Assembly (NCBI GenBank): GCA_003970805.2
Contig: CP051152.1
Span: 2,046,001-2,110,000 of the forward strand
DNA length: 64,000 bases
Reading direction: 5' to 3'
Source: Undibacterium piscinae
GTDB taxonomy: Bacteria > Pseudomonadota > Gammaproteobacteria > Burkholderiales > Burkholderiaceae_D
Both the position numbers and the translations under genes were made by a program. Positions 17,466-22,935 of this stretch are shown here, piece after piece. How positions within the stretch are numbered: the first letter of the stretch is position 1; the number at the start of each line of letters is the position of its first letter. The notes beneath the pieces were generated by a model. The model saw nothing but the letters and a program-made list of their open reading frames with translations. It was not told where the DNA came from and ran no database searches.

Positions 17466-17550
17466 CTATCTGACAACAGCCACAGGCATGAAACAGGTAG
17501 AATGCTGCACTTGGCGACAGCCCAGCCTTTTTCTTACCAGAATACCCTCC

Positions 17551-18483
17551 ATGCCACATTTTTTTTCGCGCTTTGCCTGCCTTCCTGCCGGTGTATTTTT
17601 TTGTTGTGCCACCCTGGTCGCACCAGATCTGGCGATCGCCGCCAAACCTAAACCAGCCAAAGCGCAAAAAAGCCTGACTATCTATGCGGCAGGCGATATT
17701 GCCGACTGCAGAAAACTTCCTCCTGAAGAAAGCATGGCTGCCAAAACCGCCGCCATCATCAACGCCGGCCTGCAGCAAGACAGTAAGGCCATGGTGCTGA
17801 CACTGGGCGATAACACTTACCCGGTAGGCCGCCCGGAAGAATTCAACAATTGCTACGATGCCACCTGGGGCAAGTTCAAGAGCAGCACCCTGCCCTCACC
17901 GGGCAACCATGATTACGGTATGCCGCAGGCCCTAGGTTATTACAATTACTTTGACGAACTAGCCGGCCCGGACCGCCGTGGCTATTACAGCAAGACCGCA
18001 GGCAACTGGCTGATCCTGTCACTCAATAGCAATCGCAACGAATTACCTATGCAAGAACAGTTGAACTGGCTCAGGGAACAACTCGCCACCAGTAAGCGCG
18101 CCTGCATACTGGCTTACTGGCATCATCCCGTGTATAGCTCAGGCGGCCACGGCAATAATGACATCATGCAGGCGGCATGGGAAATGCTGGCCGCCGCCAG
18201 GGCCGATATCGTACTGACTTCGCATGACCATAACTACGAACGCATGGCACCTATCAATGGCAGCGGCGAACGCGATGACAAGGCCGGCATCCGTAGCTTC
18301 GTGGTCGGCACCGGCGGCGCCAGGCTGACCCCGCTGTTTTTCGCCAAGCCCACCACCGAAGTGAGGAATAATACGACCCACGGGGTCTTAAAACTCAAGC
18401 TGCACGCCAATAGTTATGACTGGGAATTTCTGGCCGTAGACGGCAATAGTTTTAGCGATAAAGGCCATGGCGAGTGCCATTAG
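17551..18483 (+). CDS. Secreted metallophosphoesterase (calcineurin-like)
   Basis: A 310-residue exported phosphoesterase. The chosen start is the ATG at 17551; the frame opens 21 codons earlier but that part lacks family features. A signal peptide ends near DLAIAAKPKP. Dimetal motifs are present in order: YAAGDIADC (GDxxD-like), LTLGDNTYP (GDN), SPGNHDYG (GNHD), AYWHHPVYSSGGH and SHDHNYER (GHxH-like with Ser in first position). This arrangement resembles purple acid phosphatase-like bacterial proteins. The substrate is unknown; phosphate release in the periplasm or outside the cell is likely. It stands alone, with no partner gene. Confidence 0.82.
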   Translation: MPHFFSRFACLPAGVFFCCATLVAPDLAIAAKPKPAKAQKSLTIYAAGDIADCRKLPPEESMAAKTAAIINAGLQQDSKAMVLTLGDNTYPVGRPEEFNNCYDATWGKFKSSTLPSPGNHDYGMPQALGYYNYFDELAGPDRRGYYSKTAGNWLILSLNSNRNELPMQEQLNWLREQLATSKRACILAYWHHPVYSSGGHGNNDIMQAAWEMLAAARADIVLTSHDHNYERMAPINGSGERDDKAGIRSFVVGTGGARLTPLFFAKPTTEVRNNTTHGVLKLKLHANSYDWEFLAVDGNSFSDKGHGECH

Positions 18484-18575
18484 CAATAGTCAATCAAGCT
18501 AGCCAGATAGTTACTATACGTATTTGCTTATAACACCTATTTTAAATTCATAACAAAACTTCCGGATAAACTGAC

Positions 18576-18581
18576 TATACT
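18576..18581 (+). promoter_or_regulatory. Likely -10 box of guaC
   Basis: TATACT is a good sigma-70 -10 hexamer; no clear -35 lies at the proper distance. Transcription from here would begin at about 18587, just before the leader hairpins. Confidence 0.4.
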
Positions 18582-18586
18582 TAATG

Positions 18587-18660
18587 ACGGTTCAGAGGTT
18601 TACCCTATCACACCGATAGCAGGGCCTCTGCCGCGTCACACCGACGTTTACCGGAGTTGT
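18587..18660 (+). promoter_or_regulatory. Structured guaC leader, candidate cis-regulatory RNA
   Basis: Two hairpins fill this leader. The first has an outer stem CAGAGG/CCTCTG (18593-18598 with 18625-18630), then CCC/GGG and CTATC/GATAG, with loop ACACC. The second has CGTC/GACG (18634-18637 with 18643-18646) with the same loop ACACC, giving the 9-mer TCACACCGA twice. TTTACC occurs once before the first loop (18599-18604) and once after the second (18647-18652), directly before the GGAG ribosome-binding site at 18653-18656. Placement next to the ribosome-binding site of a purine gene suggests control of translation. I could not assign it to a known riboswitch class from memory. Confidence 0.5.
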
Positions 18661-18661
18661 C

Positions 18662-19702
18662 ATGCATATAGAAGAATCCCTGAAACTTGATTTCAAAGAT
18701 GTCCTGATCCGCCCTAAGCGATCTACCCTCACATCGCGCGCCCAGGTTGAATTGCAGCGTGAATTTGTGTTCCATCATTCAGGCAAGACTTACCATGGCA
18801 TCCCCATCATTGCCGCCAATATGGACAGCACAGGCACCATGGAAATGGCCGCCGCACTCGGCCGGCACCAGATGTCCGTGGCCTTGCACAAGCATTACGA
18901 CGAAGCGGCACTGGTCAATTATTTTTCCGGCTTGCAAAACAAATCCACCGCGTTTTACTCCATGGGCATCACCCAGACTGATTTTGACAAGTTCTCCGCT
19001 GTCATGAATCAGGCAAAAAACGCCATCGAATATGTTTGCATCGACGTCGCCAACGGCTACACCGAAGGTTTCATCAATTTCGTCAAGAAAGTGCGCGCCA
19101 CCTATCCGCACCTGACCATCATGGCCGGTAACGTGGTCACTGGTGACATTACCGAAGAATTGATATTGGCCGGTGCCGACATCGTCAAGGTAGGCATAGG
19201 CCCGGGTTCGGTCTGTACCACCCGCAAGATGACAGGCGTTGGCTACCCGCAATTATCGGCAGTGATCGAATGCGCTGATGCCGCGCACGGTCTGGGCGGA
19301 CAAATCTGCGCCGATGGCGGTTGCGTAGTACCGGGTGACTTGGCCAAGGCCTTTGGTGCCGGCGCTGATTTCATCATGCTCGGTGGCATGCTGGCCGGAC
19401 ACGATGAATGTGCCGGTGACCTGGTCGAGCGCGACGGTCAGCAATTCAAGAGTTTTTACGGCATGAGCAGCCGCGCCGCGATGGATAAATATGCCGGTGG
19501 TGTCGCCAAATACCGCGCCTCGGAAGGCAAGGAAGTGTTATTGCCTTATCGTGGCCCGGTAGAAGCGAGCCTGCTCGACATCCTCGGCGGCGTACGCTCG
19601 GCCTGCACCTATGTCGGTGCGCACAAACTCAAGGAACTCACCAAGCGCACCACCTTTATCCGCGTCACCCAGCAACTCAATGAAGTGTTTGGTAAATCCT
19701 GA
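18662..19702 (+). CDS. guaC: GMP reductase
   Basis: A 346-residue enzyme that converts GMP to IMP and ammonia with NADPH, in purine salvage. It begins [20 protein letters not shown], as E. coli GuaC does. The catalytic cysteine is in [16 protein letters not shown], with the phosphate-binding glycine segments [19 protein letters not shown] and [11 protein letters not shown] further on. No CBS domain is inserted, which separates it from IMP dehydrogenase. It is a single gene with its own promoter and a structured leader, and is followed by repeat DNA rather than an operon partner. Confidence 0.93.
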
Positions 19703-21385: not shown

Positions 21386-21935
21386 ATGACTAAATCTGCA
21401 ATACTTGAGAAGCTAAGTCCACGTATGACCCAAGAACAAGCCAAATACATCAGCGGTTATTTCAAGATCGTCACGGCCTATAACGCTCCTACGGCGGTTT
21501 CAACTCTGTCGTCTGGCAAGGTGTTCCAGGATCTCCATTTGCCGGTCAAAACTTTGTTTCAATTCGCGGCACGCAAGAAGGCCAAGATTTTCTTGATGAT
21601 ATCGACCTCGCCTTCAAAAGGATTACCTTCGACGCAACTAAGGGATATGGTCAACTGGTGGTTACGTGAAAACACACGGGCAGGCAATGATCTCATTCAA
21701 ATTGAGATAAAGGAAACGCTGATCTATATCGATCAGTCACACATCAAGTAAGTTAATTGACTTTGTACGGGCTGCAACAGCGACTGCCACCGCCAATGGA
21801 AATTTAGTAGATTTGGCTGGCATCAATCCGTCAATGCACATAGCTTGGGTGGTTATTTGGCCACCTCATTTGCTCGGTTATTTGGAGCTGATAGCATCAA
21901 CACTTTTAATAGTGCCGGCTTTAAACGGGATCAGG
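21386..21935 (+). pseudogene. Lipase-like alpha/beta hydrolase, multiply frameshifted
   Basis: Reading across frames gives a class 3 lipase-like protein. The start is MTKSAILEKLSPRMTQEQAK, then FKIVTAYNAPT. In a second frame come GGFNSVVWQGVPGSPFAGQN and FVSIRGTQEGQDFLDDIDLA (the RGT strand typical of lipase_3 proteins). Back in the first frame is DMVNWWLRENTRAGND, and in a further frame AHSLGGYLATSFARLFGAD, which holds the nucleophile elbow HSLGG at about 21839-21853. At least three indels separate these blocks, and the 3' end is cut off by the transposase-tail array at 21940. Related lipases occur as type VI secretion effectors; nothing here proves that role. Confidence 0.75.
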
Positions 21936-21939
21936 CGAA

Positions 21940-22935
21940 ACTGGGGTCAGTTCTAACATTCCAACATTTTCAAATTACGCTTCCGCAGCGCGTACTGCGC
22001 GGCTTACGTCATGTAATGCCACATGGAAAACGGGGTCAGTTCTAACATTCCAACATTTTCAAATTACGTTTCCGTCGCGTGCGAAACTGGGGTCAGCGTG
22101 CGAAACTGGGGTCAGTTCTAACATTCCAACATTTTCAAATTACGCTTCCGCAGCGCGTACTGCGCGGCTTACCGTCATGTAATGCACAGAAAAATATGCC
22201 GCGATTTCGGCCACGAGAAACTGGGGTCAGTTCTAAGATTCCAACATTTTCAAATTACGCTTCCGCAGCGCGTACTGCACGGCTTACCGTCATGTAATGC
22301 ACAGAAAAATATGCCGCGATTTCGGCCATGGTGTAGGGCGCCGGAGCGGTAGGCGCTTACCATTGCCTCGTTGCGATCGAGTAAGGAAAACGGGGTCAGT
22401 TCTAACATTCCAACATTTTCAAATTACGTTTCCGTCGCGCGTACTGCGCGGCTTACCGTCATGTAATGCACAGAGAAATATGCCGCGATTTCGGCAATGG
22501 TGTAGGCGCCGGAGCGGTAGGCGCTTACCATTGCCTCGTTGCGATCGAGCGCTTTGTGCTGCATAGTCTTCCAGACGCAATGCCAGGCTGCGTTTATGCG
22601 CAAGCGATAATTCTCTAAGCTCGCTTCCTTGCATTGTGGCTTGATGCTGCTTAATAAAATTGTCATCACCCAGCAGTAGCTGATGCTTGGTGGCAAGCAG
22701 CGGCGAGGCTAAGCCTACCCCTTGCAGAACAAATTCTTTGAAATTACGCCTGGCGGCGGCGCGCTGCGTGCCAAATTGTCCGAGCAGCCAATCGGCATCC
22801 AGCCATTCCGGCACCAACTGGTCGTTCATCACTAACGGATTCAAAATCGGCATGAAACGGGGTCAGTTCTAACATTCCAACATTTCAAATTACGTCTACG
22901 CAGCGCGTACTGGCCAACTCACCATCATGCAAGCC
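21940..22935. repeat. Array of REP-associated transposase 3' ends
   Basis: The unit begins AACTGGGGTCAGTTCTAACA, continues TTCCAACATTTTCAAATTAC and, in longer copies, GCGCGTACTGCGCGGCTTAC. GGGGTCAG starts at 21943, 22032, 22089 (core only), 22108, 22223, 22392 and 22859. On the minus strand the unit encodes a transposase C-terminus (RKRNLKMLEC), so the array consists of nested partial copies of one gene end. Copy lengths vary from a dozen to about 165 bases before the longest one, which carries the decayed gene at 22424-22853. Confidence 0.85.
22424..22853 (-). pseudogene. REP-associated tyrosine transposase (RAYT), C-terminal half
   Basis: Only the C-terminal half is left, and it is frameshifted. 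The upstream frame reads WLDADWLLGQFGTQRAAARR, FVLQGVGLASPLLATKHQLL and LRELSLAHKRSLALRLEDY; the downstream frame reads AMVSAYRSGAYTIAEIAAYF and SVHYMTVSRAVRA, a C-terminal HTH seen in one RAYT subfamily. The catalytic Y1 domain with its His-x-His motif is missing. It is the longest member of the repeat array around it. A different, intact RAYT is present at 31687-32217. Confidence 0.8.

Follow-up and report, generated by a model that had tools for sequence, protein, structure and literature searches.

Does the mRNA leader of guaC in Undibacterium piscinae carry a regulatory RNA, and if so, which of its parts would act? The question arose from a stretch of 64,000 nucleotides (the window, meaning the whole DNA analysed here), in which two short hairpins with the same ACACC loop had been noticed ahead of a gene taken to be guaC. 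The gene assignment was borne out, the product scoring 591 bits against NF003470 (cut-off 397) and 550 bits against TIGR01305 (cut-off 492); GMP reductase converts guanine nucleotides back to IMP. The sequence features described were also found as claimed: the shared 9-mer TCACACCGA is present at 18608-18616 and 18636-18644 with no further copy on either strand of the window, TTTACC flanks the hairpins at 18599-18604 and 18647-18652, and both hairpins appear in the predicted fold of 18580-18664 (z = -2.47; 3 of 200 shuffles fold equally well). A repeated 9-mer was obtained in 73 of 20000 shuffles of the window leader and is unusual taken alone, though it was chosen after looking.

The sequence-only reading had taken the identical loops for the recognition element, and this claim failed. 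The paired 9-mer was found in 1 of the 98 genomes searched, the window's own, and in 0 of the 97 others, and among 30 leaders of the genus the longest repeat is 9 bases in the window and at most 8 in all others. The nearest relative, L083, whose GuaC is 97% identical, carries ACACC in the first hairpin and TTAGC in the second; the next relative, L084, has GTGCC, and its second hairpin is not clear by eye. Given the single genome with the 9-mer pair and the ACACC/TTAGC loops of L083, the identical loops are private to the window genome among those searched, and they were rejected as a recognition signal. The same observations led to rejection of a double hairpin of the guanidine-II (mini-ykkC) type, a class in which two hairpins have alike loops. 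A small upstream ORF was rejected by eye: the window has ATGACGGTT..., yet most leaders have no ATG at that place.

A shared structure emerged when guaC leaders were aligned, DNA similarity search being insufficient: with the 105-bp window leader as query against 43 genus genomes, real matches were limited to its own genome and the sisters G015 (89%) and G007 (76%), the others being short with E of 0.002 or worse. The guaC leader is a predicted three-helix element found in most guaC loci of Undibacterium (Table 1). In a core of 17 distinct leaders from 19 loci (alignment A2), the order is ACGGCUC, a P2 helix of free sequence, a linker ending in UUCCC (15/17), a P3 hairpin of the form GCGUC-CGCCA-GACGC (loop CGCCA in 16/17), GGAGUCGU and the start codon. 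The 5' end ACGGCUC is complementary to GAGUCGU in the ribosome-binding region, and the two make up the predicted helix P1; the 5' end can therefore close on the ribosome-binding site, which would give a three-way junction. In the window 3 of the 7 P1 pairs are G-U. The two hairpins noticed at the outset correspond to P2 and P3, and P1, the presumed controlling helix between 5' end and ribosome-binding site, was missing from that description.

Table 1. Predicted features of the guaC leader and gene in the window.
Feature	Positions	Strand	Basis
-10-like box TATACT of guaC	18576..18581	+	ACGG exactly 5 bases further on
Whole leader element	18583..18664	+	match to covariance model R1 (model built without the window)
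P1 5' strand: ACGGTTC 18587-18593, possible extension ATG 18584-18586	18584..18593	+	complementary to 18654-18660 (and 18661-18663)
P2 hairpin (first hairpin): outer stem AGAGG/CCTCT; apical stem CTATC/GATAG 18605-18619; loop ACACC 18610-18614	18594..18629	+	covariation in the genus, fold of the window
P3 hairpin (second hairpin): GCGTC-ACACC-GACGT	18633..18647	+	aligned to P3 of model R1
Ribosome-binding site GGAG 18653-18656; P1 3' strand GAGTTGT 18654-18660; possible extension CAT 18661-18663 into the start codon	18653..18663	+	P1 conservation and pairing
guaC, GMP reductase, 346 aa	18662..19702	+	NCBIfam profile match

It had been proposed that an alignment of guaC leaders might reveal covariation in both stems together with conserved loops. 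Judged by covariation, the structured leader is conserved, strongly in P2 (the first hairpin), weakly in P3 (the second) and not in P1; the ACACC loops are not conserved. In A2, 92.4% of the cells pair. Both sides have changed in 9 of the 21 pairs, of which 8 belong to P2 and 1 to P3. The covariation score of 0.274 compares with 0.166 for shuffles, 0 of 500 of which reach 0.274, and with at most 0.099 for slid registers. Alignment A3 (26 model matches, 24 distinct) was aligned by the model and is thus fitted to the structure; with that limit, its score was 0.305 against 0.157 when shuffled, and 11 pairs were changed on both sides (9 in P2, 2 in P3). The P2 pairs so changed amount to 8/9 in A2 and 9/9 in A3. 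For P3 in A3, 93.3% of the cells are paired and both-side changes occur in 2 of 5 pairs. P1 is paired in 97.6% of the cells of A3 and has no pair with changes on both sides in either A2 or A3, and the case for P1 pairing therefore comes from conservation, complementarity and predicted energy. One P1 G-U pair is invariant in 24/24 distinct leaders of A3. Four core leaders (L090, L092, L097 and L111) break the sixth P1 pair (A2 columns 10-85), and in these P1 is predicted to re-register with a bulge. RNAalifold alone, applied to the 25-leader alignment, recovered P3 and no other helix; by eye, MAFFT partly misaligns P2.

Comparison with silent sites in guaC shows the P1 strands, the linker and P3 with its loop to be under purifying selection in the core. 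The mean pairwise difference in the core was 0.055 for the 5' strand of P1, 0.017 for its 3' strand, 0.071 for UUCCC, 0.085 for the P3 stem and 0.047 for the P3 loop. The corresponding value was 0.535 at fourfold-degenerate guaC sites and higher in two stretches of the leader, the P2 loop (0.637) and the first part of the linker (0.627). Across the 25 leaders of alignment A1 the P1 strands kept low values (0.079 and 0.076), and conservation was more relaxed in the P3 stem (0.215), the P3 loop (0.342) and the linker (0.306), with 0.550 at fourfold sites.

Part of the conservation concerns the promoter region. In 27 of the 30 genus guaC loci (the exceptions being L085, L087 and L095) the pattern TATA[CA]T is followed by ACGG exactly 5 bases further on; a consensus scan found no sigma-70-like site before the window guaC. 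Because the TATACT at 18576-18581 would place the start of the guaC transcript near 18587, upstream of 18600, the objection that transcription might begin downstream of 18600 probably does not apply to the window guaC. Upstream of guaC, 12 of the 29 genus loci that have a -10-like box carry an imperfect dyad of the approximate form TATAYG-N6-CGTGATA, which begins 61-62 bases ahead of that box. Clear copies occur at L083, L094, L096, L099-L101 and L105-L110, and, judged by eye, a degenerate copy at 18511-18537 of the window. A loose dyad pattern, written post hoc, was matched in 16/29 loci, 4 of them at other offsets and the window being negative, and in 2.2% of shuffled regions; the dyad is possibly an operator for a guaC transcription factor. 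The fixed 5-base spacing and the dyad would both fit conservation at the level of the DNA (promoter, initially transcribed sequence or operator) with the hairpins incidental. We regard that reading as highly improbable: promoter function accounts neither for the covariation in P2 nor for the conservation of a linker and P3 that lie about 40-60 bases beyond the predicted start.

Other observations concern the surroundings of the gene. Directly upstream of guaC, positions 17488-18483 of the window encode a predicted protein ending in ...SYDWEFLAVDGNSFSDKGHGECH, which has no NCBIfam match and which we take to resemble a metallophosphoesterase. A similar ending precedes guaC in at least 15 of the 30 genus loci (the script chose another frame in the rest) and, by eye, also in some loci of the family. 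Downstream of guaC, at 21845-22566, three adjoining ORFs all have GSVLTFQHFQIT in their translations, which indicates that a stretch of DNA is repeated there. The gene itself is patchily distributed, being present in 30 of 43 Undibacterium genomes and in 42 of the 294 genomes of the family draw, 19 of those 42 being Undibacterium.

The range of the element was examined with a covariance model, R1, trained on the 17 distinct core leaders (19 loci), the window excluded. R1 finds 26 of the 30 guaC leaders. The 19 core loci score 70-95 bits, and of the 11 loci outside the training set 7, the window among them, score 22-34 bits; R1 misses L084, L085, L087 and L095. The leaders of L085 and L095 are both without the RNA element, and ahead of the -10-like box these two loci have in common TGATTATATCCAAATCA, an inverted repeat (TGATT-N7-AATCA). 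At other places in the 43 genus genomes R1 had no match below an E of 0.03 (best 0.0319), and below this value the element is seen at guaC only. One of the 13 genus genomes that are without guaC, several of them incomplete, had an R1 match at E up to 1 (E 0.816).

Outside the genus no convincing match was obtained in sampled, strictly filtered scans. Of the 294 genomes scanned in the family at E up to 0.1, 37 had a match, 17 in the genus and 20 outside it; of the 399 scanned in the order at E up to 0.01, 9 had one, 3 in the genus and 6 outside. The non-genus counts are about the number expected by chance at those thresholds. The order scan missed the 26.8-bit copy of the window and the family scan missed the copy in G015, so that the scans exclude strong members alone and weak distant members are possible. 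Thirteen scan loci were inspected, 12 of them non-genus (6/13 of the family loci, L172-L177, and 6/7 of the order loci, L207-L212) and one a secondary genus match (L170). A stop-free frame of 120 or more codons overlaps each of them; this suggests a position inside genes, though such frames are no proof in G+C-rich DNA. R1 was also applied to 42 of 80 contig-search loci (L002-L043), where the matches at L004 and L005 are genus leaders already counted and one further match, at L027, is weak (11 bits, E 3.1, other strand). Outside the genus, 23 family genomes were found to have guaC; the leaders of 22 of them (L185-L206; the gene of G049 is without a start) were folded, and no obvious counterpart was seen by eye. 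Of the conservation that the sequence-only reading had proposed to look for, a structured leader running into the ribosome-binding site is kept before guaC in 26 of the 30 genus loci, and conservation throughout Burkholderiales was not supported by these sampled and filtered scans.

Within its own genome the window leader is the best R1 match (26.8 bits, E 1.9e-4; next E 0.477), and it is without both the UUCCC linker and the CGCCA loop. In a GuaC tree (FastTree, rooted on L007, shown without support values) the window falls in a nested group of 11 loci, 10 of which have low-scoring or lost leaders, with L111 at 74.6; the leader of L103, which branches outermost in the genus, is scored by R1 at 25 bits. 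Given this nested position among low-scoring or lost leaders and the disappearance of UUCCC and CGCCA, the guaC leader of the window appears to be a divergent copy, and perhaps one in decay.

What the element would do was examined by folding. In 23 of the 30 leaders (28 of them distinct) the first 15 nt are predicted to pair with the ribosome-binding site at a mean probability of 0.5 or more, the shuffled means being 0.09-0.28, and in 18 of 30 this pairing lies within the top 5% of the leader's own 200 shuffles. The predicted cost of freeing the 8-nt site ranges from 2.8 kcal/mol in the window to 10.3 kcal/mol among the 18 leaders computed, and is 6.3-9.4 kcal/mol in the core (13 of 17 core leaders computed). 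P1 of the window is predicted at 0.16, about the level of its shuffles (mean 0.15), and a fold that pairs UGACG to CGUCA of P3 competes with it; the energies are -25.3 kcal/mol for the P1-closed form, -23.1 for the site-free form and -25.9 for the minimum. Another fold is preferred over P1 in L089 (0.00), L091 (0.03), L083 (0.11), L084, L085 (0.00) and L087 (0.03). On these predictions the masking model has stronger support among the core leaders than for the window itself. Two further ideas were dropped. One was an RNA thermometer: pairing from the site to the start codon in the window weakens gradually with temperature, being 0.69 at 10 C and 0.42 at 42 C, and shows no sharp step that would distinguish it from ordinary melting. 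The other, a strand exchange between P1 and P2, fits, by eye, only part of the core.

We consider it probable, with some reserve, that this genus-level three-helix leader at the 5' end of the guaC mRNA controls translation initiation of GMP reductase. The extreme 5' end of the transcript (ACGGYUC) would pair with the ribosome-binding site and spacer (GAGUYGU), and closure of P1 would make a three-way junction bearing the variable P2 and the conserved P3. With P1 closed the site would be held off the ribosome, and with P1 open guaC would be translated. We infer that P1 forms in cells and represses, and that some signal, be it a purine nucleotide, a protein or another factor, may shift the balance of P1.

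A serious rival, though one we hold to be rather unlikely, is that the folded leader is static, setting a low translation rate or shielding the 5' end of the mRNA from decay without any signal. Several points would suit it: P1 would begin at about the predicted +1 with the 5' end paired to the site in the 23 of 30 leaders given above, P2 keeps its pairing despite sequence drift, and the element is lost or altered in several species. Net exposure of the site and start codon is also overall not below that of shuffled leaders, just one of the 30 falling within the lowest 5% of its shuffles, and this counts against masking by P1. A static structure would, however, have no need for the conservation of the unpaired linker and loop (0.071 and 0.047 against 0.535), nor for the invariant G-U pair in P1, which looks as if P1 must stay weak.

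Translation control by way of P1 would include, as special cases, a riboswitch and a protein-binding site. In a riboswitch the three-way junction with UUCCC and CGCCA would be an aptamer for a purine compound (e.g. GMP, IMP, guanine or an adenine nucleotide) that sets P1 and thereby GMP reductase translation. In its favour, the core linker and P3 loop match the pairing strands in conservation despite the drift of P2, the element is restricted to guaC below an E of 0.03, and known riboswitches include designs in which a three-way junction closes on the ribosome-binding site. The linker and loop are, however, lost in the window clade and changed in L086, L088, L094, L100, L103 and L111; a ligand pocket could scarcely absorb such changes if these copies still worked, and the element is seen in one genus only. 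We consider the riboswitch doubtful because the strong conservation of linker and loop across the core is offset by their absence from the window and their changes in several other leaders. There is a small chance that a new riboswitch class, so far seen in one betaproteobacterial genus, senses a purine nucleotide through the UUCCC/CGCCA junction and gates GMP reductase translation via the 5'-end helix, the window copy being in the course of loss. The same restriction to guaC, together with a short conserved hairpin just upstream of the site whose CGCCA loop recurs in 16/17 core leaders, would also suit GuaC autoregulation or another RNA-binding protein acting on P3 beside the ribosome-binding site. 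We judge this improbable, as no protein known for such a hairpin was identified and the loop is altered in the window clade though the gene served is unchanged.

Under the preferred explanation, translation control through P1, an RNA leader dedicated to guaC would add an RNA layer to the control of the balance between adenine and guanine nucleotides. The core leaders, the window's own excluded, offer a defined target, some 83 nt long, in which obvious mutants could be made, and the natural losses of the element within the genus allow comparison.

The expectation that the leader would fit no known class was supported by comparison with Rfam 15 (4227 models, among which we take the NMT1 and guanidine models to be included), which gave no credible match. 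There were 0 matches at the gathering score in the 64-kb window and in the loci of 17 relatives, and 0 at E up to 10 in the region 18480-18680; the core leader L102 gave one chance-level match, on the other strand, at 5.2 bits against a cut-off of 55. The guaC leader resembles the NMT1 (xanthine) and guanidine riboswitches in having small hairpins in a leader, and differs from them in these null results and in that its ACACC loops are not conserved. With the purine riboswitches (guanine, adenine, 2'-dG) it shares a three-way junction with two hairpins and a purine gene; unlike them it is without an Rfam match, and its P2 loop is not conserved, so that there is no conserved loop-loop contact, as compared by eye between A2 and the general features of the family. 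Among the matches listed from the open-access literature searched, where subscription journals are mostly missing, no title or abstract opening describes this leader, and the main text of PMC2864571 makes no mention of guaC or GMP reductase; as far as searched, the element is apparently undescribed. Like other leaders that mask the ribosome-binding site, including translational riboswitches, ribosomal-protein leaders and RNA thermometers, the guaC leader has a 5' helix predicted to pair with the site and spacer by the start codon, and it differs from these in the two-hairpin three-way junction of its core, with the UUCCC linker, the CGCCA loop and no credible Rfam 15 match. In Bacillus subtilis, PMC4223553 places guaC in a purine-responsive regulon, that of PurR. 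This control is transcriptional and exerted by a DNA-binding protein, whereas the conserved element of Undibacterium lies in the mRNA leader.
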